Assembly: GCA_021287185.1 (NCBI GenBank)
Contig: JAJTAZ010000022.1
Coordinates: 1-64,000, forward strand
Source of the DNA: Burkholderiales bacterium
GTDB taxonomy: Bacteria > Pseudomonadota > Gammaproteobacteria > Burkholderiales > Burkholderiaceae
DNA: 64,000 nucleotides
Reading direction: 5' to 3'
The notes below the pieces were generated by a model. That model worked only from the letters and a program-made list of their open reading frames with translations, ran no database searches and was not told the origin of the DNA. Both the position numbers and the translations under genes were made by a program. Positions 1,481 to 29,164 of the stretch are shown here, piece by piece. Every line of letters starts with the position of its first letter. Position 1 is the stretch's first letter.

Positions 1481-1739
1481 ATAAGCCCTAAAAATTCTAT
1501 GTCAGGCGAAATTTTAGCATTTTTGTCGCATTTTTGCATAAATTATTTATTATTTATTACGTTAATATCTTAATTAAATATTGCATTCTCTAACGATTAC
1601 TACTATAATCGTTATAAATGACGCAAAATGACAATTTTGAGTTATTCAACATAATTTTTCCGTGAAACATTGCTGAATAATTAAGGATAAAGTCCTATAT
1701 TCTCGTTTATAATCAATGGGTTAATTTTTTTAAAAATCG

Positions 1740-1964
1740 ATGCAAATTTCGCGTGAAACATTTTACTTCGGACAAAAGATGAGAAGTTATAGAGTCGATA
1801 CAAAGCAAATCAACGGAACCGAACGGTTTGTGGTTGCACTGTATGACGAAGGTTTAGAAATTTTTGATTTTGTATTGATCGACTGGAGTTCTGTATTGAA
1901 CACCATCGAATGCTGGGAATTAAGAGGGGACTCATGGCTTCAAGAGTCTCATCAAACTGAATAA
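1740..1964 (+). CDS. Hypothetical small protein, 74 residues
   Basis: A short soluble protein rich in aromatic and acidic residues (motifs such as YDEGLEIFDF), without a recognised domain. It starts at ATG 1740 after a long AT-rich upstream region and ends just before the structured leader of the ParB-domain gene. Isolated position, moderate coding character; function unknown. Confidence 0.45.
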   Translation: MQISRETFYFGQKMRSYRVDTKQINGTERFVVALYDEGLEIFDFVLIDWSSVLNTIECWELRGDSWLQESHQTE

Positions 1965-2043
1965 GGTACTCTCCTACCTTGCCTTTCGGGGCAACCCAGA
2001 GCCAGTCAGCTGTGAGGGCGGCTGACTGGCTCGCAAGATGGGT
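1963..2043 (+). ncRNA. Structured 5' leader of the ParB-domain gene
   Basis: Three stem-loops lie in a row: AAGGTA/TACCTT (1963-1980), a TGCC/GGCA hairpin (1980-1993), and a perfect 12-bp stem GAGCCAGTCAGC / GCTGACTGGCTC (1999-2010 with 2021-2032). The last is extended by AACCCA/TGGGTT (1993-1998 with 2038-2043). There is no T-run, so it is not a simple terminator. The element ends 40 bases before the ATG at 2083. The motif TCGCAAGATGGGT (2031-2043) recurs with one change in the ssb leader of this ICE. It could be a regulatory RNA of the radC type, a protein-binding leader or a single-strand promoter; these options are inference. Confidence 0.6.
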
Positions 2044-2082
2044 TATTTCATTAAGATTTGAGTCAATTTATTGGAGGTTGTA

Positions 2083-2982: not shown

Positions 2983-2984
2983 TC

Positions 2985-3413
2985 ATGGTTATTCAGTCAG
3001 GTTTTCATACGTTTGTTCCTAAAGTTTGGCACATTCACCTCGGTTATATGGCACAAGTATTAAAAATTGATTACGTGGGACAGCAAGTTGAAATCAGTAG
3101 CCCCCCAGAAGCAAAATCATTTGATGATACTGATGGTTTTGCGGGATTTGAAGAATTGATTTTGTTGAAACCAACTGGAAAGTATGACGCTTCGGAAGAA
3201 ATGATTTACGAAGGTGATATTTTTGACTCGATCTACAAACTCGATGGTTGCCAAGGGCGTTATGTGGTTACATATTGTGAGAACAGGTGTATTTTTTTTC
3301 CGTTGAAAATTGGTAAGCACCAGCAAGTGAACGTCGGTGTTTCCATCAGTGATGTCGCTATGCGATGTAAAATTGGGAATAAATTTGAGAATCCTGAGTT
3401 GCTTATCGCTTAA
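2985..3413 (+). CDS. YopX-family protein
   Basis: 142 residues. The middle and C-terminus match the YopX pattern seen in many phage and plasmid proteins: a Thr-Gly motif, IYEGDIF at about residues 75-81, and a closing GNKFENPELL box. YopX proteins are small beta-rich proteins of mobile elements with no settled biochemical role. Translation starts two bases after the ParB-like stop with GGAGG upstream, so the two are coupled. Confidence 0.65.
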   Translation: MVIQSGFHTFVPKVWHIHLGYMAQVLKIDYVGQQVEISSPPEAKSFDDTDGFAGFEELILLKPTGKYDASEEMIYEGDIFDSIYKLDGCQGRYVVTYCENRCIFFPLKIGKHQQVNVGVSISDVAMRCKIGNKFENPELLIA

Positions 3414-3417
3414 TAGA

Positions 3418-3437
3418 ATTCCTTCGGTCAAATGATA
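3418..3437. repeat. 20-bp direct repeat, second copy at 4018-4037
   Basis: The 20-mer TTCCTTCGGTCAAATGRTAT occurs at 3418-3437 and again at 4018-4037, 600 bp apart, in the same orientation with one mismatch. The second copy codes for residues 8-14 of the 45-residue ORF before the integrase; the first lies after the YopX-like gene and would encode a truncated version of the same peptide. It probably records a partial duplication, or the insertion of the gene between the copies. Confidence 0.6.
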
Positions 3438-3523
3438 TAAACGCGAAACAGTAAAGTGCGGACTTGACGTGCCACTGCGCTGTAGGTTCGGCCAATACAT
3501 TCATCGTATTGAAAGGTAAGATA

Positions 3524-3994
3524 ATGAATATTCCACTAATTTCCCAACTGGTTGATGGGTTGGGTTTTGAACTTTTGAGTTGGAAGGACAGATACGGGAA
3601 AGGGACTTGGGTGGTCTGCTTGCCCAATGACTCCTTCGAACCACATGAAATTTGGGAGGCATCAGAGGATGCTGATTTTCCAATGTTTTTAGCTTCTGAA
3701 TACTTGCTTTCAACAACAGCAAATTGGCTTCCTGTTGTTACTGGCAACACACTTTTAGAGGCAATGAATGAACTTGAATCACGACTTCGAAACCTTGATG
3801 AGACCGAGTTATCGCATAACTCAAATTGGATGATCGCAGTTCAAGGTGCCTTAGCCCATTTTTGTCACGTTCGACGTAAGCAAGCTTTGAATAACAGTAC
3901 AAGAGGTTCGTTTTTGAAACTTCCTTCGGATTATTTGATTGTTGCCAAGGCTTATAAAGGCAATATGGACATTGTTTGGGACAACAATATATAA
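3524..3994 (+). CDS. Hypothetical protein, 156 residues
   Basis: No recognised family. ATG 3524 is the likely start; the frame is open back to 3464 but the extra residues look non-coding. The protein appears cytosolic, has a well-folded composition and ends IVWDNNI. It precedes the 45-residue ORF by 2 bases and the integrase by about 140 bases, so the three genes probably form one transcript. Confidence 0.5.
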   Translation: MNIPLISQLVDGLGFELLSWKDRYGKGTWVVCLPNDSFEPHEIWEASEDADFPMFLASEYLLSTTANWLPVVTGNTLLEAMNELESRLRNLDETELSHNSNWMIAVQGALAHFCHVRRKQALNNSTRGSFLKLPSDYLIVAKAYKGNMDIVWDNNI

Positions 3995-3996
3995 AA

Positions 3997-4134
3997 ATGA
4001 AACAAAACCTACTAACTTTCCTTCGGTCAAATGGTATCACTGTCCACGAAGTAGAAAATTTACCCGAAGCAGGATTCCTTGGTATCTGTAATAAGCGCGA
4101 TTGGCCTCGATTAATTCGATGGGTACAAATCTGA
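3997..4134 (+). CDS. 45-residue ORF coupled to the integrase
   Basis: ATG 3997 to TGA 4132-4134 encodes a 45-residue basic peptide with the motifs FLRSNGITVHEVENL and RDWPRLIRWVQI. It begins 2 bases after the upstream stop and ends 1 base before the integrase ATG at 4136, so its translation should deliver ribosomes to the integrase start. No family is recognised. Confidence rests on tight packing and non-random codon use; a small integrase co-factor is one possible role. Confidence 0.45.
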   Translation: MKQNLLTFLRSNGITVHEVENLPEAGFLGICNKRDWPRLIRWVQI

Positions 4135-4135
4135 A

Positions 4136-5248
4136 ATGAATGATGAACTGTCGTCTACCACAAAATCGGCTCTTAGCAACCACTTTGGTGATTCAACGCT
4201 TGTTTCGAACGATACGATAGCCATTGCAACGTGGTTGAATTCGTATCGTAACCGTTCAAAAGAAACGATACGTTCGTTTAGTAAAGAGGCCATTAGGTTT
4301 TTGATGTGGGTGGAACTGCGCAAAGGGCAGGGTGATTCGCTATTGCGTGGCGTGACCGCTGAAGATGCGAACGAATATTTGGACTTTTTGATTGCGCCAC
4401 AAATTTTCCCAACTTGGATACTTCAAAAATATGGTTATTCACGTCAGCCATTTCATGGCAAAGGCTTGTGCCGAGAGTCAATTCGTCAAGCAGTTATAAT
4501 TCTCAATCGAATGTTTTCCGTGCTACAAAACATTCAAATTGGACAACACATACCATACGTTCAGCTCAATCCATTTGTGCTGGTGAAGGCAATGCCAATT
4601 TCACAAGATTTTGACACCAAGAAAGCCCTCACAAAGGAAGAATGGTCAATGGTGCAAGACACGATTGAATTGCTACCTCGCAATACCAAACGTGAGCAAT
4701 TCCATTACTATCGTACTCGATGGATTTTTCAACTACTTTACCGCCTGTGGGTTCGACGTGCGACGTTAAGTTCACTCAAGATGGGCGATTTTTTTCCATC
4801 AAGTGACGGTTGGATGATCCAAGTTACCAGTAAAGGTAATAAAACCGCCTCTCTAATAGCTTCAACAAAGCTCATGAGTGCATTGATGGAGTATAGATTC
4901 GCATTGGAATTGCCTGAGTTGCCAACTCCAAACGATTCAAGACCATTGGTAAGTACATTGTATAATCCATATATGCCACTGAGCCCTGAATCCTTATATG
5001 CGGTTTGTCGAGTCATTTATCGTGCTACGGCTGAACGAGTTGCTGAGACACATCCATACACGGCAGAAAAGCTTAGAAAAGCAGGCCCGCACACCATGAG
5101 GCACACAGGCATTTCTCATGCAATCTACAGTGGTGTTTCTTTAACGCATGTGAACAAACAGGCAATGCACGCAAATATCCAAACTACAGTACGATACGTT
5201 CAAGCACAAAAGGATATTATGATGGACGAGTTCGAAAAATGTGACTAA
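4136..5248 (+). CDS. Tyrosine recombinase / phage-type integrase
   Basis: 370 residues. An N-terminal SAM-like DNA-binding part (about 25-150) is followed by the catalytic domain (about 165-360). The catalytic set is visible: Arg in WVRRATL (207/208), Lys in SKGNK (233/236), HTMR (H319, R322), H345 in MHANIQTT and the nucleophile Y354 in RYV. The acid usually three residues after the first Arg is absent. It could be the ICE integrase or an internal recombinase. Because the element ends in a dif site, XerCD could also serve, so which enzyme moves the ICE is unclear. Confidence 0.85.
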   Translation: MNDELSSTTKSALSNHFGDSTLVSNDTIAIATWLNSYRNRSKETIRSFSKEAIRFLMWVELRKGQGDSLLRGVTAEDANEYLDFLIAPQIFPTWILQKYGYSRQPFHGKGLCRESIRQAVIILNRMFSVLQNIQIGQHIPYVQLNPFVLVKAMPISQDFDTKKALTKEEWSMVQDTIELLPRNTKREQFHYYRTRWIFQLLYRLWVRRATLSSLKMGDFFPSSDGWMIQVTSKGNKTASLIASTKLMSALMEYRFALELPELPTPNDSRPLVSTLYNPYMPLSPESLYAVCRVIYRATAERVAETHPYTAEKLRKAGPHTMRHTGISHAIYSGVSLTHVNKQAMHANIQTTVRYVQAQKDIMMDEFEKCD

Positions 5249-5413
5249 ATTCTGTCACTATTGAAACTAAACTATTGTTCATTTGCACGTATAAACTCCC
5301 AGTTTGCCAAAATGCGCAAGTTGTGCAAACGCCTTAATTCATCTTTACCGTTTTACCTCACATCAAATTCATGTACACTGTTTGAAATTAGTTACTTTTT
5401 TCAATTGTGCGCC

Positions 5414-5872
5414 ATGAACCTATCAATTCCAACTCAACAAATTCTTTTCAAATGTACCGCAAATGCAGTCCATTTGCGAGTCCCGTTGTACCTTCAAAAC
5501 GTTCACGCTGGCTTTCCCTCACCAGCTGAGTCATACGTTGACAGTGCGCTTGACTTCAACGATTACCTGGTCAGTAACCCTAATGCCACGTTCGCTGTGT
5601 ACAGCTGTGGTGACTCAATGATTGATGTCGGTATCTATTCTGGTGACTTGCTTGTGTTTGACCGATCCATAACGCCGAACAACGGTGACATCATCGTTGC
5701 CAGTGTAGGAGGGGAGTTCACCGTGAAGCGACTGGTGGTCACAGCTCTGGGCATCGAGCTTCACCCTGAAAATTCCTCTGGCCAATACTCAATCGTTCGA
5801 CCTACCGATGGCGTTGAAATCACTTTGGTAGGTGTGCTGACGCATTCGATCAAGCGGTTCAGGAAAGCCTGA
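5414..5872 (+). CDS. umuD: UmuD-like S24 self-cleaving protein
   Basis: 152 residues from ATG 5414. The cleavage site reads HA-GFPSPA (A32/G33), the family-typical Ala/Cys-Gly bond before FPSPA. The catalytic Ser is in GDSM (S68) and Lys in TVKRL (K105). After RecA-stimulated cleavage, UmuD' joins UmuC as DNA polymerase V for error-prone translesion synthesis. It is followed 1 base later by umuC. A clear LexA box (CTGT-N8-ACAG) is not seen upstream, so SOS control is not shown. Confidence 0.9.
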
Positions 5873-5873
5873 T

Positions 5874-7244
5874 ATGTACGCACTCATCGACGGGAATAGT
5901 TTCTACGCATCATGCGAACGTGTGTTTCGCCCCGATCTCGCGGGTGTGCCTATCATCGTACTGTCAAATAACGACGGTTGCGTGGTCACGCGCACAGTTG
6001 AAGCCAAAGCCTTGGGAATCAAAATGGGTGAACCGTTGTTCAAGATAAAGCACCTAGTGCGACAGAACCGTGTGCAGGTGTTCTCATCAAACTACGAGCT
6101 GTATGCTGATATGTCCCGACGCATGATGAACACTGTGGCTACACTCGTGCCACGCATCGAGGTGTATTCAATCGATGAGTGCTTTGCTGACCTATCAGGC
6201 ATGGATCATTATTCTCAATTTATGGGGGCTGGGCAAAATGACGCAAGCCCATCATCAGCATTCATGCGCTTTGGGGAGATATCCAACCAAGCATCAGCAA
6301 GCTCTGGGCAAAACACTGGGCTACTCACGCTCGGATTCAGCATCCGTGCACGAGTACTTCAGTGGACAGGCATACCCACGTGCGTGGGCATCGCTCCTAC
6401 CAAAACCCTTGCCAAATTCTGCAATCACTTGGCCAAACGCCATGCCGTGTTCAAAGGGGTGGTGGACTGGAATGCCTGGACACCTGCCATTCAACAACGA
6501 GCTTTGGCCAGCGAAGACGTGACTGAAGTATGGGGCATCGGTCGGCAGATCGGGCGATCGTTGAATGCCATGGGCATTAAGACCGCTGCTGACCTTGCCA
6601 ATGCACCACCACACACCATACGCAAGATGTTCGGCGTGGTGGTTGAGAGGACGCAGCGCGAGTTGCAAGGCATCGAGTGCTTGGAGCTGGAGGACATTGC
6701 ACCGAAACGCCAACAGATTGTCCGCAGCCGAAGTTTCGGCCAACCGATTACAACTCTGGATGGTCTGTCTGCATCACTCGCTCACCACGTCGCTGAAGCT
6801 GCGCAAAGGTTGCGAGGGCAGGGTAGTGTGACCCATGCGATTCAGGTATTCATCCACACCAACCCGTTTAAGCCTGATTTACCTCAATACAGTGGCTCAG
6901 ATTGCATTGCAATCCCTGCGGGCACATCAGACACCCTCAAATTGAATCAAATCGCTCAGAAGGCGTTAAAATCGATTTTCAAAGGTGGGTTTGAGTACAA
7001 GAAATGCGGTGTCGTGTTATCAGGAATTGAATCATCATCAACCCAAGCACAGCTTGACTGGATCGATCCTGGTGACAGTGACAAACGGATTGAGTTGATG
7101 CGCTGCGTCGATACCCTGAACAGCCGCTTTGGTCGCGGCTCTATCAAGATGGGCACTGAAGCACTGAACCAGGCGTGGTCCATGCGCCGTGATAAACTCA
7201 GTCCAAAATACACAACACAGTTTACTGATCTGCTCAGAATTTAA
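5874..7244 (+). CDS. umuC: DNA polymerase V catalytic subunit UmuC
   Basis: 456 residues, longer than the usual 420 or so. Y-family catalytic residues are intact: D6 in the N-terminal [12 protein letters not shown] motif and D101/E102 in YSIDECF. The thumb and little-finger regions follow, with the C-terminal UmuC extension. The extra length comes from a Ser/Gly/Gln-rich insertion at about residues 114-152, between the catalytic SIDE motif and the [16 protein letters not shown] helix. Many plasmids and ICEs carry umuDC homologues (rumAB, mucAB), which raise mutation rate under stress. Confidence 0.9.
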
Positions 7245-15090: not shown

Positions 15091-15651
15091 TCAATAACCC
15101 CCTCGCCACTGACGTACGCGCCCTGTATCAACGTGGGTAAATGAATCATAAAACCCAACTCCGCCAATTCGGTAGTATTTTGCCATTTGCCCAACTTGGT
15201 CGGGATTTAGCCCACGCACCGATAAATCTGCCGCCATCCCTTTGACGTGCAATGAATTTTTTGCTGCGCCTTCAAGGTTGCTATTGTGTGCTTGCGTTCG
15301 GTAGCCAGAATTGATTGTAATAATTGGATTCACAACGCCAGCATCTCTTGCCCATCCTTGTATCCCATACATGAGATTGAATACCCCAAAATCGATACTT
15401 GATGTACGTCCGCGGTCTACCACATCACGCATCATGTAGCATAGTTGCTGGTATGCATCTGGGATGTACTGACCGTTTTGAAAAAAAGAAATGCGAGCTC
15501 TTTCACCCGTTTGTGCACGACGAATATCAACCCATCTATCTCTGTACCAAAAGTTGCGATCACTCGCAGCGGCCAAATCTGGCAGAAGGATACCCGCAGC
15601 TCCAACTGCCACAAACCCCAAGCCTTTAGTTAAAAATTCACGACGGTTCAT
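15091..15651 (-). CDS. Tat-exported M15/DUF882-type peptidase
   Basis: 186 residues. A twin-arginine signal peptide (NRREFLTKG at residues 2-10, cleavage near AAA-SD) precedes a peptidase M15A/DUF882 domain. Zinc ligands fit the family: His and Asp in SLHVKGMAADL, and His in THVDTGR. The E. coli relatives (MepK/YcbK) cut peptidoglycan crosslinks. In an ICE such an enzyme probably opens the cell wall locally for the transfer apparatus. Encoded in the run of small genes downstream of topB. Confidence 0.8.
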   Translation of the reverse strand: MNRREFLTKGLGFVAVGAAGILLPDLAAASDRNFWYRDRWVDIRRAQTGERARISFFQNGQYIPDAYQQLCYMMRDVVDRGRTSSIDFGVFNLMYGIQGWARDAGVVNPIITINSGYRTQAHNSNLEGAAKNSLHVKGMAADLSVRGLNPDQVGQMAKYYRIGGVGFYDSFTHVDTGRVRQWRGGY

Positions 15652-16497: not shown

Positions 16498-18414
16498 TTA
16501 AACCTTTGCACCTGCACTTGTGTTATGAGCTTTTAACCATTCACGTTGACGCTCATCTGCAATTTTCTTACCCTCGGCAACCATATCCCTTACCTGTTGC
16601 TCCAATTCACCCATAAAACGTTCATACGTCATATTCTTGGTGCCTTTTTCAATTTGACTCAATTGGAATTCCCATAGGGCTGTAGTTTCTGGCTGTGTCA
16701 ATTCGGCAGGTAGCTTTTTAACAACCATTCTTCCTTTATCTGTGGAAATGATTTTGGTACCCTTTTTAATAACGTAATTCACTTCCAACAAACGCTCAAT
16801 AATTGCAGCTCGCGTTGCAGGGGTGCCCAAACCATTTGATTGGCTTAAAATCTTCTTGAGCACTGGATCTGTCACTGAACTGGCCACAGATTGCATCGCT
16901 TCAAGCAGTGAAGCTTGTGTATACGGCTTAGGTGCGGTTGTTTTACCCGCAGTCACATCGAAAGCAATCCCTCTCACTTCGTCATCTTTAGATACCTCAG
17001 GTAGTTTCTGCTGAGGATCTTTGGTATTTGAATCATCCTCTACGACTTTGAAAATTCCTTTCCAGCCCAAAGCACGTTCAACATTCCCTTTGGCAACAAA
17101 TCGCTCTGACTCACACTCAATCTCAATTATTGAAGTATCGTATTCATAATCAGGTGCAAACTGCATCATGAATCGATCACGAACCAATTTGTAGATTGCT
17201 TTCTCATGCGCCGACAGTATCGACCAATCAAATTTGTTTGGAACTGCCTTGGGCATGATTGCATGGTGATCGCTCTTTGCGACTTGCACATCGTTCCAAG
17301 CACGTCCTTTCTTAGACAAGTTCAATTTAGCTACGACCTCAGACATAGTTGGATCCATCGCAACAATAGTGGCCATAATAGACGGGACATCCTCGAACTG
17401 GCTTTCAGTTAAATATCGGCTATCACCGCGAGGGTACGAAATCAGTTTATGCTTCTCGTACAGAACCTGTGCGCAATCCAAAACCTGTTTGACAGATATT
17501 TTGAGCAATTCAGAAGCTTCCTTTTGCAACTCCAGTAGATCATGGGGTAGGGGAGCAGCCGTTGCTTTTGCTTCAGTACTCGCTTCCACAATCCGTCCTA
17601 CCTGATTTCGACATTTATCAGCTACCATCTGTAATAGTTTTTCGTCAGTACAATGTCCCTCAGCATCGCGTTTTGCATCAGGGATTTTGTAGCTTGTTTT
17701 AATGGCTCCGTTTAAATGCTCGAACACGCCTGTCAAATTGAAAAACGACTTTGCTTTAAAATTTTCAATTGCAAGATCACGTCTGACAATGAGGGCTAAA
17801 GTTGGCGTTTGTACTCGCCCAACTGATATCGGACCCTCTTTGGACTTTGGTTCTTTTGACCCATACGCGGCTGTGAAAACACGGCTGCAATTCATGCCAA
17901 CCAACCAGTCAGCACGTTGTCTTGCCAACCCAGCCATATACAAACCTTGCTTTTTCTCTCCAGGCATGATGTTTTTCAAACCGTCTCGAATGCTCTTATC
18001 ATCCAATGCTTGTATCCACAATCGACTCAGTTTCTTGCGCCCGTAATCAAAATTGCTGTATGTCAATAATGATCGACCTATCAGTTCGCCTTCGCGTCCC
18101 GCGTCAGTCGCTAAGACAACTTCATCACATCGATTAATCAGCCCTCGTATAGCATTCATTTGCTTATCGAAGCCCTTAGCCACCTTGAACTTCCATTTAT
18201 CTGGAAAGAGCGGCAGTGGCTCTAAATTCCAATACTTATTTAGTTCTTCAACATATTCTTCTGGTTTTGCTGATTCTAAAATATGACCAACAGCCCAAGT
18301 CACACAATCATTGTCATGCTCGTAATAAAACCCCATGTTTCGAGGTAATTGCCCAAACAGCACTCGAGCAATATCTTTAGCTTGACCAGGTTTTTCGCAA
18401 ATAAACAATCTCAC
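16498..18414 (-). CDS. topB: DNA topoisomerase III
   Basis: 638 residues, start GTG overlapping the previous stop. Toprim domain at the N-terminus (ICEKPGQA at 5-12; acidic motif TDAGREGE at 103-110), the RVQTPTLAL motif near 200, and the active-site Tyr327 in LISYPRGDSRYL. Type IA enzyme that passes single strands and decatenates replication intermediates. ICEs of this class carry their own topB next to ssb, as here. Confidence 0.93.
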   Translation of the reverse strand: MRLFICEKPGQAKDIARVLFGQLPRNMGFYYEHDNDCVTWAVGHILESAKPEEYVEELNKYWNLEPLPLFPDKWKFKVAKGFDKQMNAIRGLINRCDEVVLATDAGREGELIGRSLLTYSNFDYGRKKLSRLWIQALDDKSIRDGLKNIMPGEKKQGLYMAGLARQRADWLVGMNCSRVFTAAYGSKEPKSKEGPISVGRVQTPTLALIVRRDLAIENFKAKSFFNLTGVFEHLNGAIKTSYKIPDAKRDAEGHCTDEKLLQMVADKCRNQVGRIVEASTEAKATAAPLPHDLLELQKEASELLKISVKQVLDCAQVLYEKHKLISYPRGDSRYLTESQFEDVPSIMATIVAMDPTMSEVVAKLNLSKKGRAWNDVQVAKSDHHAIMPKAVPNKFDWSILSAHEKAIYKLVRDRFMMQFAPDYEYDTSIIEIECESERFVAKGNVERALGWKGIFKVVEDDSNTKDPQQKLPEVSKDDEVRGIAFDVTAGKTTAPKPYTQASLLEAMQSVASSVTDPVLKKILSQSNGLGTPATRAAIIERLLEVNYVIKKGTKIISTDKGRMVVKKLPAELTQPETTALWEFQLSQIEKGTKNMTYERFMGELEQQVRDMVAEGKKIADERQREWLKAHNTSAGAKV

Positions 18415-19132: not shown

Positions 19133-19552
19133 TTACAGAGGAATGTCATCATCAAAAGGCACTGATGGTTCTCCATGAGGTGTACCTTGTGCTAAATCAT
19201 CCGCCGAGTTACCAGATTCCTTTTTATCCAACAACAAAAACTCTTCACCGATCACTTCGGTTGTCCAGCGATCTACGCCTTTACTATCGGTCCATTTGCG
19301 AGTACGTAAGCGTCCCACAATCGTCACATGGGAACCCTTTTTTAAGAGATCCAAAATATTTTCAGCACGCTTTTCAAAGAACACGACTCGATGCCACTCA
19401 GTCGCAGTTTCCTTTTCACCTGATGTTTTGTTTTTAAAATGAGAATTTGTAGCCATGTTAAACGTGGCAACCAATGTCCCATTTTGAGTAGATGCTCGCT
19501 CTGGATCTTTACCCAAATGCCCAATTAAATTTACACTGTTTTCAATACCCAT
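19133..19552 (-). CDS. ssb: Single-stranded DNA-binding protein
   Basis: 139 residues starting MGIENSVNLIGHLGKDPE, with AGGAGG 7 bases upstream fixing ATG 19552 as the start. OB fold over residues 1-110, with the EWHRVVFF and GSHVTIVGRLRTRKW motifs, and the short acidic tip FDDDIPL that recruits partner proteins. It coats the transferred strand and probably works with TopB during element replication. Expression may be controlled by the leader just upstream. Confidence 0.93.
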   Translation of the reverse strand: MGIENSVNLIGHLGKDPERASTQNGTLVATFNMATNSHFKNKTSGEKETATEWHRVVFFEKRAENILDLLKKGSHVTIVGRLRTRKWTDSKGVDRWTTEVIGEEFLLLDKKESGNSADDLAQGTPHGEPSVPFDDDIPL

Positions 19553-19564
19553 CGTTATCCTCCT

Positions 19565-19623
19565 AAAAAAGCCCCGCAGGGCATTAAACAAAGTTTGTGG
19601 CTCTCCCGCCACCCGTCTTGCGA
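19565..19623 (-). promoter_or_regulatory. ssb leader with terminator-like hairpin
   Basis: Reading on the minus strand: TCGCAAGACGGGT (19623-19611), then a hairpin GTGGC-GGGAGA-GCCAC (19612-19597), then GCCC-TGCG-GGGC (19582-19571) directly followed by six T. The last is a textbook intrinsic terminator placed only a few bases before the ssb ribosome-binding site. That suggests transcription attenuation of the ssb-topB operon. The motif TCGCAAGAYGGGT is shared with the leader at 1963-2043. Confidence 0.6.
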
Positions 19624-19751: not shown

Positions 19752-20315
19752 TCAAATTTCTTTGAACCAAGTTGGTTGTAAAGGAATTTCTACACTGGCA
19801 TTTCTGACCATCTCCAACATACTGGCCACCAACAACAGATGCTCTCTAACCTGATTAACTTTATTCATTACATTGATACGTTGATACTCAATAATCTTGT
19901 ACACCCATCTTTCTTCAACTGAGAAACGCAACGTAACCAACTCATCAAAAATCGTTGAAATCTGCATCATCTTTTGTGGCTTGGTACGTGTTTTCCAATG
20001 CAAACTGTATTTGATAACTTCAGTTCCTTCATCCAAGTGATCGTTCAAATAAGCAGCTACAATCGGTCGGTTTATTTTCGCCACACTGAAAGGGTGAACT
20101 GAGCCGACTTGACGCAATAGTGTCTCGTTGGCCCACAAGACAAACTCATTGACTAAAAACTCCATGTTCTTTTGAGTGTCAATTGCATTCTTCAAATCCT
20201 GCTGTAAAGACTCAACGCTTCTAACAGTCAATACCTCTCGGTTTGAATCACCCAAATATCCACCATGATCTGGAAAGAGCAATTTGTGAATTGACTTCTC
20301 ATCAAGCATTGACAT
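19752..20315 (-). CDS. DUF3158 ICE protein
   Basis: 187 residues, overlapping the upstream gene by 14 bases. The LHWKTRT..KMMQISTIF stretch and the later YQRINVMNKVNQVREHL fit the DUF3158 family, which in PFGI-1-type elements sits between the PFL_4669 gene and ssb, exactly as here. Function unknown. Confidence 0.65.
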   Translation of the reverse strand: MSMLDEKSIHKLLFPDHGGYLGDSNREVLTVRSVESLQQDLKNAIDTQKNMEFLVNEFVLWANETLLRQVGSVHPFSVAKINRPIVAAYLNDHLDEGTEVIKYSLHWKTRTKPQKMMQISTIFDELVTLRFSVEERWVYKIIEYQRINVMNKVNQVREHLLLVASMLEMVRNASVEIPLQPTWFKEI

Positions 20316-21429
20316 TACTTACTCCATTCAAAGCAGTAACAGCCTTACGAATCTTCTCATTAACTTGTAGCAAAACATCCGCGTCGCTTTGTTTGAACTC
20401 ACTTACATTCGAAACCGCAAACCTTGGTTGCAACTTTCTAACCAAAACTCTGTCATCTACAACACCCCAACCGCTGACCGCAATCTTTGCAAGAGTTTCA
20501 ATCATTGCTTCATCTGCATTCAACCAATGCTCGTAATGCAGACTCTTGTTAAAATCATCCTTAGTCAACACCTTTGTTTGGATACTCACTTCAAAGAATA
20601 AATTTCGCAACTTGGACATGTATGCTGTTTTCGACTTGTGAAACTCATCACGAGTCAATTCACCACCGTAGTATAAAGTTGCCAACAACCGACACAATCC
20701 ATCGAACTTGTGTACCAACTTAACGAACTGAGTTGCGTATTGACAAGTGAAATCCATGCTATAAAATTTCGGCCCGCTGCTCTCTACTTCATTAAAGACA
20801 AACCCCTCGTTCTTAGACTGCTCCAATTTCTTATTTAACTGTGCAGACTGTGTTTCAATGGACTTAAATATCTCATCGTATTTAAGTCCAATATTGATAA
20901 GTGCTTGGTCAACATACGGATTAGGTTTTTTGTTTTCATAAAACAACTTACTTACATTGTGAGCAGCCTGAATACATCCGACAGCTCCATCAGTTTTGTT
21001 CTCTGCGTAATTACCTACAAACACATCACGAGCCTCACCAGAATGTAACCAAACACCATTCACACCCGATGGTCGATAAGAGCCGTGTTCGCGCTTTGAT
21101 GCAGAACTGTTTTTCAATACGATTTGATAATCATCTAAATTTAGGTTTTTGATGGATGCGTTGGTTCTGAGTAAACCGTTATCTTTCAAATGTTGAAACA
21201 CCCACATTTTCAGAACACTAATTCGACCTTCATACTCAATAATCCGCGCATACTCTTTGGAACCAGCATCAATTCCAGACGTAATCAATTCATCGACAAC
21301 ACGTTCTTCTTGTAACCAATCATATCTGTCACGAAAGGGCGATTGCTCATCCGTTAAAAAACCTGAAAATTGAGATCGGAATGCGATTGAGCCTGGTCTC
21401 AAAAAAACACGAGTGCGATTGTCTTTCAT
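20302..21429 (-). CDS. PFL_4669-family ICE protein
   Basis: 375 residues from ATG 21429 (GGAG six bases upstream). The C-terminal half has the pattern KFDGLCRLLATLYYGG...LRNLFFEV...LTKDDF seen in the TIGR03761/PFL_4669 family of integrating conjugative element proteins. Context on both sides (rep-like gene, DUF3158, ssb) supports this. Function unknown. Confidence 0.65.
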   Translation of the reverse strand: MKDNRTRVFLRPGSIAFRSQFSGFLTDEQSPFRDRYDWLQEERVVDELITSGIDAGSKEYARIIEYEGRISVLKMWVFQHLKDNGLLRTNASIKNLNLDDYQIVLKNSSASKREHGSYRPSGVNGVWLHSGEARDVFVGNYAENKTDGAVGCIQAAHNVSKLFYENKKPNPYVDQALINIGLKYDEIFKSIETQSAQLNKKLEQSKNEGFVFNEVESSGPKFYSMDFTCQYATQFVKLVHKFDGLCRLLATLYYGGELTRDEFHKSKTAYMSKLRNLFFEVSIQTKVLTKDDFNKSLHYEHWLNADEAMIETLAKIAVSGWGVVDDRVLVRKLQPRFAVSNVSEFKQSDADVLLQVNEKIRKAVTALNGVSNVNA

Positions 21430-21552
21430 AAAAAACTCCAAAATAAATATTGCATCACTTAAACTCCCCCTTACCCATTAAAGGCTTTTGTTCGAACAAA
21501 ATCGTTCTTACAATTACAAAGCACTTTTTCACAACCATAAAACCACCAACTT

Positions 21553-21698: not shown

Positions 21699-23252
21699 CT
21701 AAACCGATAAATTTTCCTTTTGATTACGTTTTCTTAATAAAGCATCCAAATATTGTTTGGCTGTTTCTCTTGATGAAACTTGTCTCTCAACAATAGGTTC
21801 TGCAACAGCCACAACTTTATTTTTAATACACTCTCTTTTTTTCCTTACCTTATGAGCCACCTCGGGAATGAATTGACCACTTCTATCCAACTCCAAAAGC
21901 TTTTCGAAATATCGAATAGGCTGTTTGATAGTTTTGCCTGACTGTTCAAAACCGCTCATCTCGTCTAAAAAAACTTGTAATTGTGTTTTTCGGTCAAGTG
22001 CGTTGAACTTTAAGTTTGCTATGTTTCTATCGTCATGATCACTAAAGCACATTGGCCAAACCAAATCTGAATCTGTAATATGGTTTACCGTTGCAGGCTC
22101 TTTATCGGTTAATTCATTCACCACAACCACATTTTCACAAGCCCGCGTTTCTTTGCTATTTACTTGTTCATCGCTCGAATGTTTTTGTTGTTGTTGTGGT
22201 ATTTTTAAGTATTCTTTATCTGTAGTATTTTCCTTAGTAATCTTCTCTTTATAAACAATTTCACCTTTCGGTACGACAGTATTTGACGTTTCGGTACGAC
22301 TGTATTCGACCTTTGGGGACGACAGTATTTCACCTTTCGGTACGACAGTATTTAACCTTTCGGTACGACAAGAAAAGCCCTTTTTTGTATCAGAAAAGCC
22401 CTTTTTAGGTTCTTTCTTATTAACTAAGTATGTCTCACGTTGTTTCATCAACTCAGTAAAAGCCGCAAAACATTGTTTGAAGTTTATTTCAATAAAAATA
22501 TCACGTGACAAGAATAAATGCCGTTCTGAAATCAGACCGCGTTGCTTCAAATACTCACGCGCTTTGAATTGTTCCTTGTAAGACAAACCTGTTTGTTCAT
22601 GCCATTGCTCAATTGATTTAGTAATAAATCCTTGAACTTTTTGGCTATTGCCTTTGAACAGGTTTTGAAGCATCATAGACAGCATCAAACCAGCGTTGAC
22701 ACCACCACCTATATTTGCCAAAATAGTGTGATAGGGCAGTCTGTAGGATAGAAATTCTTCAAAATTACCTTGTCGATTTCGAATGTCGTTTAGTGTCAGT
22801 CGTGATGATTCCGTATTAATGTCAAAAGTCTGAAACAACAAGTTGCTCAAACCGTTCAAATTAATGCGGTAGAAGGGCGCAGCAGGAATACCAGCCACTT
22901 TAAATTCCAACAAATTCAAATCTTTCAATTGTTTCTTTGCCGTCAACTGCTCTTTCCTGCTAAGACCAGTTTCGAACGAAAAATCCTCGGTTGTTTTAAA
23001 AAACCAACCGTGGTTCTGTTCAATATTGATACCGCTCCGTGTCCAATAGATCATTTGAGAAAATAGCACTGCTGACTTAACGCTACCGAGCATATCTATC
23101 AAGCCTTTATAAACAGATATTGGGCGGTTTTGAGTGGTTAAGCTTCGCCAAATGTATTGCGCCTTATCTTCATCATCTTTTTTTGGAACAAGAGGATTGG
23201 ACTGAGAGGATTTCATCTCAGTTCTAAATCCTAAAGTTCTTTTAGAGCTCAT
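21699..23252 (-). CDS. Replication-initiator-like protein with tandem winged helices
   Basis: 517 residues. Residues about 40-135 read AVLFSQMIYWTR...GWFFKTTEDFSFETGLSRKE, the winged-helix pattern of plasmid and phage initiators (RepA/lambda O-like). A second, similar winged-helix block follows at about 165-275. The C-terminal 240 residues are low complexity and then helical. The middle of the gene carries five 23-bp iterons, as in lambda O. It starts in a 4-base overlap with the related gene upstream. Initiation activity is inferred from fold and iterons. Confidence 0.65.
   Translation of the reverse strand: MSSKRTLGFRTEMKSSQSNPLVPKKDDEDKAQYIWRSLTTQNRPISVYKGLIDMLGSVKSAVLFSQMIYWTRSGINIEQNHGWFFKTTEDFSFETGLSRKEQLTAKKQLKDLNLLEFKVAGIPAAPFYRINLNGLSNLLFQTFDINTESSRLTLNDIRNRQGNFEEFLSYRLPYHTILANIGGGVNAGLMLSMMLQNLFKGNSQKVQGFITKSIEQWHEQTGLSYKEQFKAREYLKQRGLISERHLFLSRDIFIEINFKQCFAAFTELMKQRETYLVNKKEPKKGFSDTKKGFSCRTERLNTVVPKGEILSSPKVEYSRTETSNTVVPKGEIVYKEKITKENTTDKEYLKIPQQQQKHSSDEQVNSKETRACENVVVVNELTDKEPATVNHITDSDLVWPMCFSDHDDRNIANLKFNALDRKTQLQVFLDEMSGFEQSGKTIKQPIRYFEKLLELDRSGQFIPEVAHKVRKKRECIKNKVVAVAEPIVERQVSSRETAKQYLDALLRKRNQKENLSV
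22263..22370. repeat. Five 23-bp iterons inside the rep-like gene
   Basis: Units start at 22263, 22286, 22309, 22332 and 22355, each 23 bp, consensus ACCTTTCGGTACGACAGTAT; the last is truncated. A further pair of 21-bp repeats (AGAAAAGCCCTTTTT at 22371 and 22392) follows directly. Since 23 is not a multiple of three, the repetition is preserved at DNA level rather than as a protein repeat. Such regularly phased repeats inside an initiator gene are typical binding sites of a lambda-type origin. Confidence 0.85.
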
Positions 23253-24004
23253 GCGAAGGCTCTCATCGGCTCGATTGAAAACTCATTTGTTCGAGCTTTG
23301 GAATGTTTGGTTTGCTCCACAGCCCTTGCTGACTTTTGCGCATATGACCAAGTAATATCCATAAGATATTGGATATTAATTCGCATAAGAACTTGTGCAG
23401 GGAATCCTTCTTTCCTAAGTTCAACCAAGCCAAGTTTTTTCAGAACCAGTTTCGCATTGCGAATCTCTTTTGATGTCATCCCTGATAAACCTGTCCACAG
23501 TGTGTCATGAGACTCGAACCAGTCTGAATATTGTTTACTCCGATCTAATTTGTCGTCATCAGACAAGTTAGATAATAAAAAAGACAATAAAATGACCGCA
23601 TTTATACTGCCACCTGCGTCTCTTATTGCTTTGAGATGCAATCGATTAATATCGACCGATCTCAATAAGTCAAATTCGAGATGGTTTTCAATATGGCCAC
23701 AACCCTCTGAAATATAGGTTATGGTATCCATAAAGAAGGGATCGATTTCAATCGTACCGAGCTTCGATTTAAGAATTCCAGCATTAAAGAGCTTAGTTAA
23801 AACTGTCTCAACTTCATGAGAACTCATGCTTAGTTCTGTACCCAATTGCTTGCGCGATACATGGTATCTTTGATTACAGTTTAAAAAATCCAAAACAATT
23901 GCTGACTTTGTAGAGCCTAAAGCACGAGCAATTAATGGGTTATAACTGATAGGATTATCATTGAACTGCATCACAGCATTTGGTAAGTGTTCCATTGTGT
24001 ACAT
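23249..24004 (-). CDS. Second winged-helix protein related to the initiator
   Basis: 251 residues, GGAGG five bases before ATG 24004. Two winged-helix blocks: residues about 20-75 (LGSTKSAIVLDFLNCNQRYHVSR...) and about 120-225 (INAVILLSFLLSNLSD...). The pattern parallels the next gene downstream, suggesting duplication. In related ICEs this position holds pathogenicity-island replication or STY4528-like proteins. Exact role unknown. Confidence 0.55.
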   Translation of the reverse strand: MYTMEHLPNAVMQFNDNPISYNPLIARALGSTKSAIVLDFLNCNQRYHVSRKQLGTELSMSSHEVETVLTKLFNAGILKSKLGTIEIDPFFMDTITYISEGCGHIENHLEFDLLRSVDINRLHLKAIRDAGGSINAVILLSFLLSNLSDDDKLDRSKQYSDWFESHDTLWTGLSGMTSKEIRNAKLVLKKLGLVELRKEGFPAQVLMRINIQYLMDITWSYAQKSARAVEQTKHSKARTNEFSIEPMRAFA

Positions 24005-24013
24005 GTAAACCTC

Positions 24014-24613
24014 CTACATCAAATCAAAAAGTTTGAGAACGGCATACAACTGAGTTAAGTTGTATTTGCCTTCATATGCCAAGTACAACTCTCTAACTTG
24101 TTCGTATGGCTTAAGTTTTAGTTGTTTAGACAAAGCGAACCACTTTTCACTGATTTCCTGTTGAATCGCTTCATCACTGATTAGAACGACGCGTTTAAAC
24201 TCGGAGTTTTCGACACTTAGTCCTTTACGGTATACAGCGTTCGTCACCGAGTTTGAAAGTGCAGGAAAAAACCTGTCCAGCATAGAATTGCTCGCACCTG
24301 TTGCAATCATCCACTCAAAATAATCTTGCTCTGATGATAAAATTCTCTGTTTTCTTACAGAGTCGTTAAAACGTTGTTCATTAAAGTGAACATGCACCTC
24401 AATTGTCTCAGTAGCAACATGTAAAGCTTGCGAGAAGGGCATTGATGCCAATCCCTGAACAATACGTTTTGTGCTCTCATCAAGTTGGATGCTTTTATTG
24501 TTCGCAATATTTCGATGTTTGGTAACAACTTGCTCAAGAGCCAACAAGGTTAGCTGACTATCATTAATAATCACGCCGTGTAGAGGTTTGGTTTTCGTAT
24601 TAGTTTTGCTCAT
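24014..24613 (-). CDS. DUF2857 ICE protein
   Basis: 199 residues from ATG 24613, whose start overlaps the end of parB by 14 bases. The central motif IATGASNSMLDRFFP followed by a basic R..GLS stretch matches the DUF2857 (STY4526-like) family that follows parB in PFGI-1-class elements. Function unknown; a regulator is often proposed. Confidence 0.65.
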   Translation of the reverse strand: MSKTNTKTKPLHGVIINDSQLTLLALEQVVTKHRNIANNKSIQLDESTKRIVQGLASMPFSQALHVATETIEVHVHFNEQRFNDSVRKQRILSSEQDYFEWMIATGASNSMLDRFFPALSNSVTNAVYRKGLSVENSEFKRVVLISDEAIQQEISEKWFALSKQLKLKPYEQVRELYLAYEGKYNLTQLYAVLKLFDLM

Positions 24614-26222
24614 TTTGTAAATCCGTTTGGTTAATTTCACGCACGCGCTTGAGAACATCATTGAGTAGCTGTATGAATTTCTCATCTGGTGAATACAAAT
24701 ACCAGTTTTCCATTGCGAACGGAGTTTGAGGTCCTAAATGTTCAGATATATAGGACTGCCAACGTGGTGTATCGCTGAATACCTGCATAAACAGACTTTC
24801 GTTGGGAATGTCAAAATAAGCATCTTCCATGGGGTCGATTTGACGACATATGCTTGCTAACATCCACCAGACATCCCGTGCATACGGATGAATCCTATCA
24901 ATTGGATAAAATTCACCATCAAAGTGGTCTGAAATATCGGGTAATTCCAAATAGAATTGGAAGGGCTTCGTCCCAGCTTCTCTAAAATATTGTTCAATCC
25001 CGCAATATTTGAGTAAGTCAATGACTAATTCATGCAAGGTTCTGTCTTCATAGTTTGTTTGCGTGAATTGTCCTAAAGTAACGATTGTCGATGAGGTTGG
25101 AATACTTGTTGAACCAAGATTATTTTGTTGGCTTACGCCAGACTCCGCAGTTCCCACAACTTCCACGTGTTGTTGTGACGGACTTGGCTCTAATACCTCT
25201 GAATTTTTGTTGTCTTCAGTTTCTGTATGTTGAACCTTATTGGCTGACGCATCTAAACCCAGATTTGTGGGGGTTGAAGGCAATTTTGCTTTTTGTTGTA
25301 TCAATTTTAAAGCTGCTTCTGGGAATTGCTCGAAGAAGTCTTTTCTAATAGCTTTGAGTAATGCTGGCACGTTTAATGTTGGTTCAATCGGACTTGTGTT
25401 GCTTGTCCCGTCACCGTCGCTGTGCAATGAATTTGCATCAGAAAATGTTTGAAGTGTATTTGACCAAAACTCATCAAACTCAGCATCTTGATTTGCCACA
25501 AGTTTTTGTAGTTCGTAATATGCTTTGCGTAATTCAATTGTCTTTGGACCAGAGAGGTCATAACATAGTTGCCCCAACTCTTTTAATTTGGTATTTGCAA
25601 AAAAGTACAGTGACAAGTTATTGTGCGACACAGAAGCACCCCGTGATCTGAATGTATCTGATATTTCACGAGTACTATTCTCATCTATGCCCATTAACTC
25701 TGCAAGTCGATGGTAAGAATTTGCCTTGTCCCAAAACACCACATCAGAACGTATATCATTTTCAACAATATGCTTAAGCATCATTGAAATGTCGGCATCA
25801 CCGAGTTCCGAAAAGGCCACGAAAATCACAGGAATTGCAGCAAATTTTTCATCATTGGTTTCTTGATACAATTCCTTCAGGATTGCCAAACGACTATTAC
25901 CACCTGAACAAATTTCATAGCGGTCACTTCCTGGACGCTGAGTTACTTTGACAGGGTTTTCAATACCGATAGCGCGGATAGAGTCCTTTAAGTAATTCCA
26001 ATCTTCTTCAGTACGTTTGCGACGCGGATTATGTTCGAAGCTATCAACACGATCTATGGCCACGCGCATGAGCCTATCGTGGCGATAATCGATCTTGACA
26101 TCACCTTGCTTGGGATTCTCAACATCTAATGATGCCCTGATGTCAATTCCTTTAGACGGAGCTTCAGGAGCACCAATATCTGTCAATGTGCTTAAATTGA
26201 AGCCTTTGGGTGCGGTTGCCAT
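24600..26222 (-). CDS. parB: ParB-family protein of PFGI-1 class
   Basis: 540 residues from ATG 26222, overlapping the parA stop (TGATG). ParB N-terminal domain at about residues 45-150, including NPRRKR and the GGNSRLAILKEL box, followed by a helical DNA-binding region and a long variable C-terminal part with a Gln/Ser-rich linker. It fits the ICE-specific ParB type, which acts with ParA in stable inheritance of the excised circle. Confidence 0.85.
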   Translation of the reverse strand: MATAPKGFNLSTLTDIGAPEAPSKGIDIRASLDVENPKQGDVKIDYRHDRLMRVAIDRVDSFEHNPRRKRTEEDWNYLKDSIRAIGIENPVKVTQRPGSDRYEICSGGNSRLAILKELYQETNDEKFAAIPVIFVAFSELGDADISMMLKHIVENDIRSDVVFWDKANSYHRLAELMGIDENSTREISDTFRSRGASVSHNNLSLYFFANTKLKELGQLCYDLSGPKTIELRKAYYELQKLVANQDAEFDEFWSNTLQTFSDANSLHSDGDGTSNTSPIEPTLNVPALLKAIRKDFFEQFPEAALKLIQQKAKLPSTPTNLGLDASANKVQHTETEDNKNSEVLEPSPSQQHVEVVGTAESGVSQQNNLGSTSIPTSSTIVTLGQFTQTNYEDRTLHELVIDLLKYCGIEQYFREAGTKPFQFYLELPDISDHFDGEFYPIDRIHPYARDVWWMLASICRQIDPMEDAYFDIPNESLFMQVFSDTPRWQSYISEHLGPQTPFAMENWYLYSPDEKFIQLLNDVLKRVREINQTDLQNEQN

Positions 26223-27121
26223 CAATCATTCTCCGTTTTAGAGGATTCTGTTTGAGTATCGGAGTCAACAATTGAAGAAATATCTGACTCAGATAATTGA
26301 CCAAAACAATTAACGTAGGCACCGTGGAAGTTGGGAAACAATTCCCAAGCTAAATGGTGCATTGCAATATATGCAGAATCTGATTTATTCTGAGTTGTGA
26401 TTTCACGGCAATGAGCAGGAATTCGCTCTGTTGCAGCCTCTTTGTAAGCAACTGCCGAGCGAATGACTGTCTTGAGCATTTCTACTTTGCCATTGAACTT
26501 GAAGTAGGCTTGGTTCACTTCGGCCGCGATTGCCTTTGCATCGCGTGTTTGATCCATTTTGTATATGAGTGCTTTGATTTGCCCATGGATCAAACCAAGA
26601 GGGCGACCAGAATCCAAACGTGAAAGAAGGGCTTGTGTGCCATCCTCAAACTCACGTGATGACAGAATATCAGGCGAAATAGGGGAGAGCATCATGTCAC
26701 ATGCGAATGCTGCTGAATCTTGAATAGTGCCTTCTGCACCCTGTGTGTCTATGATTACGATGTCAAAGTTGTTGTCAACGTAATCATTATTGATTGCCAT
26801 TTTGATACGCGCAGGTGCGTCAATCATTTTTGGGAGTGTGTTTTGTATTTCTCGTGTTTTATCGTTCCAAAGAACGATGGACATATTTGGAAACACAATT
26901 GTTGAGACCATTGATTCATTCAAATTGCCGTCATGAATCATTTCTATCATGCCACCCGTGGCTTCATTTCTTAATGGGTAGTATTTCGATAAACTGGCTT
27001 GAGGGTCAGCATCGATCAATAAAACTCTTGCTCCAAAATCTGCAAGAATTGCGCCTAAATTTGCAGCAAGTGTTGTTTTTCCAACACCACCTTTTTTTGA
27101 AATTAAGCCGAAAACATACAT
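26222..27121 (-). CDS. parA: ParA/Soj partition ATPase
   Basis: 299 residues from ATG 27121. The deviant Walker A motif KGGVGKTT lies at about residues 10-17, the A-prime motif LIDADPQASLS follows near 40, and Walker B IVIIDTQGAEG near 115. It is the outermost gene of the element, 90 bases from the dif site, as soj is next to the attachment site in pKLC102-like ICEs. In that family Soj is needed to keep the excised form. First gene of an operon reading away from the chromosome. Confidence 0.92.
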   Translation of the reverse strand: MYVFGLISKKGGVGKTTLAANLGAILADFGARVLLIDADPQASLSKYYPLRNEATGGMIEMIHDGNLNESMVSTIVFPNMSIVLWNDKTREIQNTLPKMIDAPARIKMAINNDYVDNNFDIVIIDTQGAEGTIQDSAAFACDMMLSPISPDILSSREFEDGTQALLSRLDSGRPLGLIHGQIKALIYKMDQTRDAKAIAAEVNQAYFKFNGKVEMLKTVIRSAVAYKEAATERIPAHCREITTQNKSDSAYIAMHHLAWELFPNFHGAYVNCFGQLSESDISSIVDSDTQTESSKTEND

Positions 27122-27212
27122 ATAAATCCCAATCAATAAATTATTTACGAGTTATTCGTATCAAAACTTATCAACTTGAAACTCAGTCTTTATAAGGCTT
27201 TCCGACTATCAC

Positions 27213-27240
27213 ACTTCGTATAATTTATATTATGTTAAAT
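27213..27240 (+). other. dif-like XerC/XerD recombination site, ICE boundary
   Basis: The 28-mer starting ACTTCGTATAA and ending TTATGTTAAAT matches E. coli dif at 23 of 28 positions by my alignment, with the XerD half (TTATGTTAAAT) perfect and the XerC half ending CGTATAA. The centre is TTTATA. It lies exactly between the outermost ICE gene and chromosomal genes, so it is the element's attachment site. The other dif copy expected at the far end is outside the window. Confidence 0.85.
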
Positions 27241-27350
27241 TATATATTCGATAGTTCCTGTTATGTGAATCATGTCAATTATTGCTGCAAATTATTTCCC
27301 CCTCTGCGATGCCACTCTATCAATACAAATCCACTGTTTGATTTGAGCAC

Positions 27351-27380
27351 AAAAAATCCCACACAGTTGTGGGATTTTTT
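27351..27380. terminator. Bidirectional intrinsic terminator
   Basis: Stem TCCCACA/TGTGGGA with a CAGT loop, flanked by A6 and T6, so it can act in both directions. It closes the DUF3126 gene on the minus strand and insulates the ICE boundary. Confidence 0.85.
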
Positions 27381-27410
27381 ACGGTGTGATTAGTAACCAA
27401 CAACGCTGAA

Positions 27411-27614
27411 TTATTCCAAATCAATGTCCAGAATCGACATGGTTAATGTGTAGGATACTTCGCCATCTTCCTCATCTTTATAAACGGTGCCAATGAATTC
27501 ACCATTGAGCAACACTTCGGTGCAATCATCGTTCTTGCTGGGTTTGAGTTTGATATCCGCACCAAATTGGTTGACGAGGTAGTTTTCGAGTTTGATGATT
27601 TCTTGTTTGTTCAT
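27411..27614 (-). CDS. DUF3126-family small protein
   Basis: 67 residues. The pattern EIIKLENYL...SKNDDCTEVLLNGEFIGTVYKDEEDGE and the ending ILDIDLE match the DUF3126 family, small acidic proteins best known from Alphaproteobacteria. Function unknown. First chromosomal gene next to dif. Confidence 0.65.
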   Translation of the reverse strand: MNKQEIIKLENYLVNQFGADIKLKPSKNDDCTEVLLNGEFIGTVYKDEEDGEVSYTLTMSILDIDLE

Positions 27615-27772: not shown

Positions 27773-29164
27773 TTATTCCAATGTTTTGAGATTTTGAATA
27801 ATTTCACCCGCCATCGGCTGTGCATCACCGTAGAGCATACGGCAGTTGTCGGTGTAAAACAGCGCGTTTTCAACGCCCGAATAGCCCGTACCTTTGCCGC
27901 GTTTGATGACAATGACGTTTTGCGCCGCATCGGCATTTAAAATCGGCATACCGTAAATCGGGCTGGATTTGTCGGTACGCGCGGATGGATTGACCACATC
28001 ATTTGCACCGATAATCAACGCCACATCTGCCTGCGCAAACTCCTCATTGATTTCATCAAGGTCAAATATTTTGTCATACGGCACGCCTGCTTCGGCGAGC
28101 AATACATTCATGTGCCCTGGCATGCGTCCTGCCACGGGATGAATGGCGAATTTAACCTCCACCCCCGCTTTTTCGAGCAAACCTGCCATTTCCCAAACTT
28201 TGTGTTGCGCGTGTGCCACCGCCATGCCGTAACCTGGTACGATAATGACTTTGCTGGCGTAACGCATCAGTGCTGCGGCATCCATCGCGTTGAGCTCTTT
28301 CATCGTGCCTTCGATGGCGGCTCCGCCCTGCGCCTCGCCTGTGATGGGGCTAAACAATATATTGCTAATCGGGCGGTTCATGGCTTTTGCCATCAGCTGG
28401 GTCAACAGTGTGCCTGCCGCGCCAACCACAATCCCAGCGATAATCAGTGCAGGATTGCCCAACACATAACCTTCAAAGCCGACCGCCAAACCTGTAAACG
28501 CGTTGAACAAAGAAATCACCACAGGCATGTCTGCGCCGCCAATCGGCATGGTCACGACCACGCCCAAAACCAGCGCAACCACAAAAAACGCCACGACCAA
28601 GCCGATGCCCGCAGGCGCATTGATGACCATCAATACGCCCAAAATCACGGCCAACACTGCCAAACCGATGTTCACGATGTTTTGCGCAGGCAATCGATGG
28701 GCTTTTTTCATCAAACCTTGTAATTTGGCAAACGCCACGCATGAACCCGTGAACGACACCGAACCAATCAATGCGCCCAACACCGCCAATACTACCGTCA
28801 CAGTGTCATGCGATTCATGCAATCGCCCTGCTTTGGCAAATTCAATCGCCGCAATCGCCGCCGCCGCGCCGCCACCCATACCATTGTAAATCGCCACCAT
28901 CTGCGGCATGTCGGTCATTTGTACTTTTTTGCCCGAAATCCATGCGGCAGAAGCACCCACCACCAAAGCCAGTAAAATCAAAGCGATGTTGTTCAAATCA
29001 GGGACTAAAAATGTGCCGATAATCGCGACCAACATCCCCACACCCGCCCAAACAATCCCTTTGCGTGCAGTGGTCGGCGAGCCCATGCCTTTGAGCCCAA
29101 ATATAAACATCACCGCGCCAATGAGCCACGCGCCTTGTACGTATAGAGGTAAGTGCAACATCAT
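27773..29164 (-). CDS. pntB: NAD(P) transhydrogenase subunit beta
   Basis: 463 residues. About nine membrane helices in the first 260 residues (domain II), then the soluble NADP(H)-binding domain III from about 285 (VIIVPGYGMAVAHAQH; later KRGKGTGYSGVENALF). With PntAA and PntAB it moves hydride between NADH and NADP+ coupled to proton entry, supplying NADPH. Last gene of the pntAA-pntAB-pntB operon; its start overlaps the pntAB stop. Confidence 0.96.
   Translation of the reverse strand: MMLHLPLYVQGAWLIGAVMFIFGLKGMGSPTTARKGIVWAGVGMLVAIIGTFLVPDLNNIALILLALVVGASAAWISGKKVQMTDMPQMVAIYNGMGGGAAAAIAAIEFAKAGRLHESHDTVTVVLAVLGALIGSVSFTGSCVAFAKLQGLMKKAHRLPAQNIVNIGLAVLAVILGVLMVINAPAGIGLVVAFFVVALVLGVVVTMPIGGADMPVVISLFNAFTGLAVGFEGYVLGNPALIIAGIVVGAAGTLLTQLMAKAMNRPISNILFSPITGEAQGGAAIEGTMKELNAMDAAALMRYASKVIIVPGYGMAVAHAQHKVWEMAGLLEKAGVEVKFAIHPVAGRMPGHMNVLLAEAGVPYDKIFDLDEINEEFAQADVALIIGANDVVNPSARTDKSSPIYGMPILNADAAQNVIVIKRGKGTGYSGVENALFYTDNCRMLYGDAQPMAGEIIQNLKTLE

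Follow-up and report, generated by a model that had tools for sequence, protein, structure and literature searches.

The dif site is needed for chromosome dimer resolution, and an element located there must therefore keep resolution working and yet escape excision. Among large conjugative-type islands, the gonococcal genetic island (GGI) of Neisseria is the one case we found in which this conflict has been analysed: FtsK crossing difGGI removes XerCD and blocks excision (PMC5357621). The border module from parA to topB has been described for the GGI as well as for the PAGI-2/3 and clc islands (PMC3334931), and a 2014 survey of GGI-like systems identified no insertion site that those outside Neisseria have in common and, among GGI-like T4SSs, reported a parA region only in Neisseriaceae (PMC4207684).

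In the present study, we analysed 64,000 nucleotides (the window) of contig C31 in the genome (G000) of a soil-type betaproteobacterium of the Burkholderiaceae. Xer-dependent integration as in the GGI, outside Neisseria, was the best reading of this locus. We estimate at roughly 0.7 the probability that the site at 27213-27240 is the dif of the host and that the island to its left is a GGI-like mobile element, or the parA-proximal part of one, integrated by host XerC/XerD.

The dif site and the break in homology at its edge

An earlier note on this DNA drew attention to a 28-bp sequence that matches dif at 23 of 28 positions and lies between parA and ordinary chromosomal genes. The 28-mer is a genuine dif (23 of 28 positions identical to that of E. 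coli), with parA on one side and the pnt operon and other chromosomal genes on the other, as follows.

26222-27136, - strand: parA, a MinD/ParA ATPase (304-aa ORF; Pfam AAA_31; likely ATG at 27121), the outermost island gene, its start 91 bp from dif
27213-27240, + strand: dif, ACTTCGTATAATTTATATTATGTTAAAT, comprising XerC arm 27213-27223 (ACTTCGTATAA), central region 27224-27229 (TTTATA) and XerD arm 27230-27240 (TTATGTTAAAT)
27773-29164, - strand: start of the pnt transhydrogenase genes, the right chromosomal flank, collinear with G001

The better dif elsewhere that the earlier note had named as a point of refutation was not found: the 28-mer is the sole match at three or fewer mismatches in the whole 2,025,903-bp assembly of G000, zero matches being expected from a shuffled-sequence control, and its XerD arm occurs once in the genome. 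In G001, a same-genus soil Burkholderiaceae MAG, the 28-mer is letter-identical. The inner 26 bases are shared by 47 public contigs, most of them gamma- or betaproteobacterial, among them a Hydromonas MAG in which the neighbouring genes differ. The skew reversal that had been proposed as a check was observed in G001; KOPS on the window's contig number 4+/0- in the island to the left of dif and 0+/11- to its right (p=7e-4), those in G001 number 16+/1- on the left and 0+/4- on the right, and the GC skew of G001 switches sign at dif. Since the site is unique, identical in G001 and the point at which KOPS and, in G001, GC skew reverse, window 27213-27240 is the chromosomal dif of the host, located at the replichore polarity switch. 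Regarding the recombinases of the host, a tblastn search with an XerD query (tblastn only, no family models) matched C19 at 58% (XerD-like) and C12 at 36% (XerC-like). An Rfam scan of the window gave zero matches. At the dif locus of G001 (L007, about 1230-1500), two further exact XerD arms lie within approximately 250 bp to the left of dif and are possibly scars of nested insertions.

Homology between G000 and G001 breaks off exactly at the 5' edge of dif, the change falling within the first base or two of the site. Identity is 80-90% to the right, where collinearity extends over tens of kilobases (pnt genes), and 51-52% to the left, which is the value of shuffled sequence; on that side, the genomes bear unrelated islands. 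Regarding the suggestion in the earlier note that a related genome should have a single dif between the flanking genes, the identical dif and the break at its edge were found, whereas G001 carries an unrelated 14-kb island and a partial dif at this position. The G001 island encodes FhaC/FhaB, a two-partner-secretion pair, together with an IS481-type transposase, and no integrase is evident in it. Its far end reads ACTTCGTATAATTTATATTAT followed by unrelated sequence; these bases are the XerC arm and the central region, the XerD arm contributing four bases. This arrangement of partial and full dif is the pattern described for difGGI (PMC5357621). With different islands in G000 and G001 on the same side, dif is in this genus a one-sided hotspot for insertions.

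Two-partner-secretion genes (FhaC/FhaB) lie at or near dif in three genera (L025:6288-17636; L008:1000-1500; G310:C1:1330093-1342995), and dif may be a hotspot for FhaC/FhaB islands too. Contig C5 was considered as the left neighbour of the window island; on visual inspection its start matches the tail end of the IS481-type transposase that adjoins dif in G001, which is suggestive only. A 22-kb chromosomal block (window 56668-64000 and onward in C31) is inverted and on the opposite side of dif in G001. A full-length integron integrase (window 54960-55961, + strand; TIGR02249, 458 bits) lies in 2.2 kb of DNA that is inserted between thyA and a GNAT gene and is absent from G001.

The parA-topB module and the far end of the island

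Leftward from dif, the genes are arranged in the order parA-parB-DUF2857-x-x-AcaB/DUF1845-x-ssb-x-topB-M15, in which we take AcaB (PF08900) to be the family formerly named DUF1845. The same order from parA to M15 is present in the dif modules of G310, a genome that was assigned to Neisseria by its density of the DNA uptake sequence (DUS). Apart from parA, the features of the island are listed below, with matches in G310 and in G254, a genome of the same order and another family.

24600-26225, - strand: parB-like gene (TIGR03764 PFGI-1 ParB, 122.8 bits, below the cut-off of 143.75)
24014-24685, - strand: DUF2857 protein at the yfeB position, below the Pfam cut-off
23249-24004, - strand: 251-aa ORF at the yfeA position, with a weak match to the G310 cluster
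21699-23252, - strand: 517-aa ORF conserved in border modules, matched on both sides of the G310 dif and also, among others, in G254 and G222
20302-21441, - strand: AcaB/TIGR03761 protein at the yfb position (TIGR03761, 50.4 bits, below the cut-off of 110.7)
19133-19612, - strand: ssb, island single-strand binding protein (TIGR00621)
16498-18414, - strand: topB, DNA topoisomerase III (NF005829, 666.5 bits, above cut-off), 42% identical to the G310 copy
15091-15651, - strand: peptidase M15/DUF882 protein, 51% identical to its positional counterpart in G310
5261-7244, + strand: umuD-umuC pair (5261-5872 and 5874-7244), also found in the G254 dif-ICE
4136-5248, + strand: divergent plasmid-type tyrosine recombinase, 370 aa (Pfam Phage_integrase; 34-51 bits with the XerC/XerD models, far below cut-off; at most 41% to plasmid integrases)
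1-4000, no strand: plasmid-like end of the assembled island (KfrA 391-1248, ParB-type protein 2071-2982)

Considering its predicted genes and their order, the left side of dif is a border module of the GGI/PFGI-1/clc type. The likeness to the GGI that the earlier note had mentioned proved to be more than an analogy; the parA-topB order matches, and the window ParA clusters with Neisseria ParAs in a tree (support 93/94), its long branch being a reason for caution. The label of a PFGI-1 class ICE was not upheld: the module is common to the GGI, clc and PAGI-2/3, the PFGI-1 models stayed below cut-off, the first approximately 9 kb of the window, with the divergent tyrosine recombinase and umuDC, is plasmid-like, and the whole G000 assembly gave no match to TIGR03760 or PF07514 as models of the MOBH relaxase. 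A tblastn search with G310 and G254 proteins detected no T4SS or transfer genes in 1.08 Mb, about half of G000.

The other end of the island lies beyond the contig, window base 1 being the contig start. A second dif copy, which the earlier note had proposed to look for there, is absent from the assembled G000 genome, the far end of the island being unassembled, and present in relatives with the same module. Two candidates were rejected: a site on C14 is AT-rich, conserved in G001 and G002 and unrelated to dif, and an XerC-arm-like match at C15:623 is inside a coding ORF. The window base 1 end shares an exact 141-bp overlap with contig C2, which runs into a tRNA-Met island beside holB, with no dif copy there. 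As proof of the far end, this join is ambiguous; it rests on one assembly k-mer, and approximately 100 bp of the overlap also occur on C17 (C17:29081-29182) inside an IS3-type transposase. With respect to tRNA attachment, also named in the earlier note as a point of refutation, the 64-kb window contains no tRNA genes, and a tRNA is reached only across this ambiguous join. The island at tRNA-Met next to holB (G000 C2:77632-80768 and C17:23015-29320) has a P4-type integrase on its C17 end, and in G002 different DNA follows the same tRNA-Met attachment sequence. The repeat of approximately 100 bp, which is present in three places (C2 end, window 1-144 and C17:29081-29182), is possibly a small mobile repeat.

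Relatives with parA beside dif

We searched for ParA in 399 genomes of the order and in 369 of the class and obtained 41 loci for which sequence was available for scanning. Four of them have dif or a half-dif about 90-180 bp upstream of parA; these sites score 20-29 bits, and the control stretches do not exceed 10.3. Of the two half-sites that looked weak at first, at the ParA loci of G111 and G254, the latter was later confirmed, by a second copy and by KOPS; the former was not.

Complete, flanked examples exist among these relatives. G254 has an element of 74 kb with VirB4/VirD4. It is bounded by a full dif (667063), where KOPS change polarity (p=5e-12), and by a half-dif (741515); the pair is in direct orientation, and parA is at the half-dif end. 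This dif-ICE encodes an XerD-grade recombinase (361 bits, XerD cut-off 329.6; G254:C10:727003-727911, L201) near umuDC, and some dif-ICEs may bring their own Xer. In G310, parA modules are present on both sides of the dif at 1300848. The left cluster, which spans from an XerC-arm remnant (1272988, beside ruvB) to this full dif, carries F-type T4SS genes (TraC-F, TraH-like) and coincides with a DUS desert, and on the right side a second, imperfect dif (1355882) is followed by another parA fragment. A second, imperfect dif at the far end is thus present in G254, G310 and G001. In G392, parA at a contig edge is adjoined by a partial dif that retains the XerC arm, the central region and a few XerD-arm bases. 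The full dif, whose XerC arm is different, is on another contig, 100 bp short of its end, and this is the layout expected for Xer integration.

In the islands that flank dif, all 19 KOPS are directed toward the intact site (4 in the window, 8 in G254, and 2 and 5 in G310), a polarity that may partly reflect strand composition. The orientation of parA varies among the relatives, the gene being on the XerC side in some and on the XerD side in others, which counts against the best reading.

Mode of integration and relation to known elements

In the mechanism that we favour, host XerCD would recombine dif with an attachment site next to the parA of the element. The 28-bp site at the parA end would remain intact and still serve dimer resolution, and the other end would carry a degenerate copy that consists of the XerC arm and part of the central region. 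Since the KOPS in the islands are all directed toward the intact dif, FtsK would cross the degenerate copy en route and, by analogy with the GGI, strip XerCD from it, such that an island that is presumably mobile would be retained. Several observations count against this mechanism: the assembly contains no second dif-like copy and no MOBH relaxase, the far end and the transfer functions are unseen in G000, and the XerC arm at 27213 is the chromosomal XerC arm, so that the insertion left no scar.

The island may instead have arrived by another route, for example through an integrase of its own acting at a tRNA, through an IS or through homologous recombination, with a rearrangement of the terminus then placing it beside dif, in which case the adjacency would not be Xer-mediated. 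Large rearrangements around dif are found in this genus, including the moved and inverted 22-kb block and reordered blocks, and C2, with its 141-bp overlap with window base 1, ends in the tRNA-Met island, the other end of which, with the P4-type integrase, is on C17; this lead to a tRNA also counts against integration at dif by Xer. However, the breakpoint is exact to the edge of dif, the same distance between parA and dif is found in other families, and the C2 join amounts to a single k-mer with a repeat in a transposase on C17, and we consider such a route unlikely.

The tyrosine recombinase gene at 4136-5248 is a further point against host XerCD, and integration at dif may have been catalysed by this element-encoded enzyme; an XerD-grade recombinase is, after all, encoded by the G254 dif-ICE. 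We regard this as quite improbable because the recombinase of the window reaches only 34-51 bits against XerC/XerD and resembles plasmid integrases, and the G001 island is also at dif with no integrase evident in it. KfrA, the ParB-type protein and the plasmid-type recombinase at 391-5248, together with the absence of a relaxase from the G000 assembly, would also suit a plasmid that was fused into the chromosome by XerCD via a plasmid dif-like site, in place of an ICE-type island. We give very little credence to this fusion since the module at 15-27 kb is an island border module that is collinear with Neisseria dif islands, and it differs mainly in name from the XerCD-mediated integration of a GGI-like element, which we continue to prefer.

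A more general proposal is that a broad class of gammaproteobacterial (sensu GTDB) conjugative islands attaches at dif, with the parA end abutting dif, T4SS types that vary (F-type in Neisseria, VirB-type in G254) and, in some members, their own XerD, the GGI being one instance; we regard the chances of this proposal as evenly balanced. If true, the GGI would be an instance of a wider class and not a peculiarity of Neisseria. Parking beside dif appears to be commoner than reported. Considering the parA module at dif across families, the pairs of intact and degenerate sites and the KOPS directed toward the intact copy, FtsK direction combined with a weakened second site is testable as a general rule, and a dif or half-dif within about 200 bp of the ParA start provides a search signature for more cases.

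Similar to the GGI of Neisseria, the window island borders dif with parA outermost beside it, has the order parA-parB-DUF2857-x-x-DUF1845-x-ssb-...-topB (PMC3334931, PMC4207684) and encodes a ParA of the Neisseria group. It differs from the GGI in that its host is not Neisseria, an F-type T4SS was not found, the far-end imperfect dif is not assembled, and the remainder of the window carries umuDC, KfrA and a tyrosine recombinase. The parA-parB-DUF2857-AcaB-ssb-topB border module is shared with the PFGI-1, PAGI-2 and clc-type ICEs; unlike PFGI-1, the window has NCBIfam PFGI-1 matches below cut-off, lacks the TIGR03760 relaxase and contains no tRNA attachment. The IMEX (CTXphi, TLCphi, EludIMEX-1 and Legionella LME-1) likewise exploit Xer at dif and have one intact and one modified site, as seen here in relatives, but none of them, whether phage, resistance island or Legionella element, has been described with the parA-topB module. 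The G254 dif-ICE, in which both ends are resolved, resembles the window in its parA end beside a dif half-site and in umuDC, and differs in its VirB4/VirD4-type T4SS, its own XerD and a ParA that is only 40% identical. Against the 2014 survey, which had no insertion site outside Neisseria (PMC4207684), the island in the window is an additional dif element of the GGI kind outside this genus; what is new beyond it is that such elements recur in several families and with secretion systems that differ.
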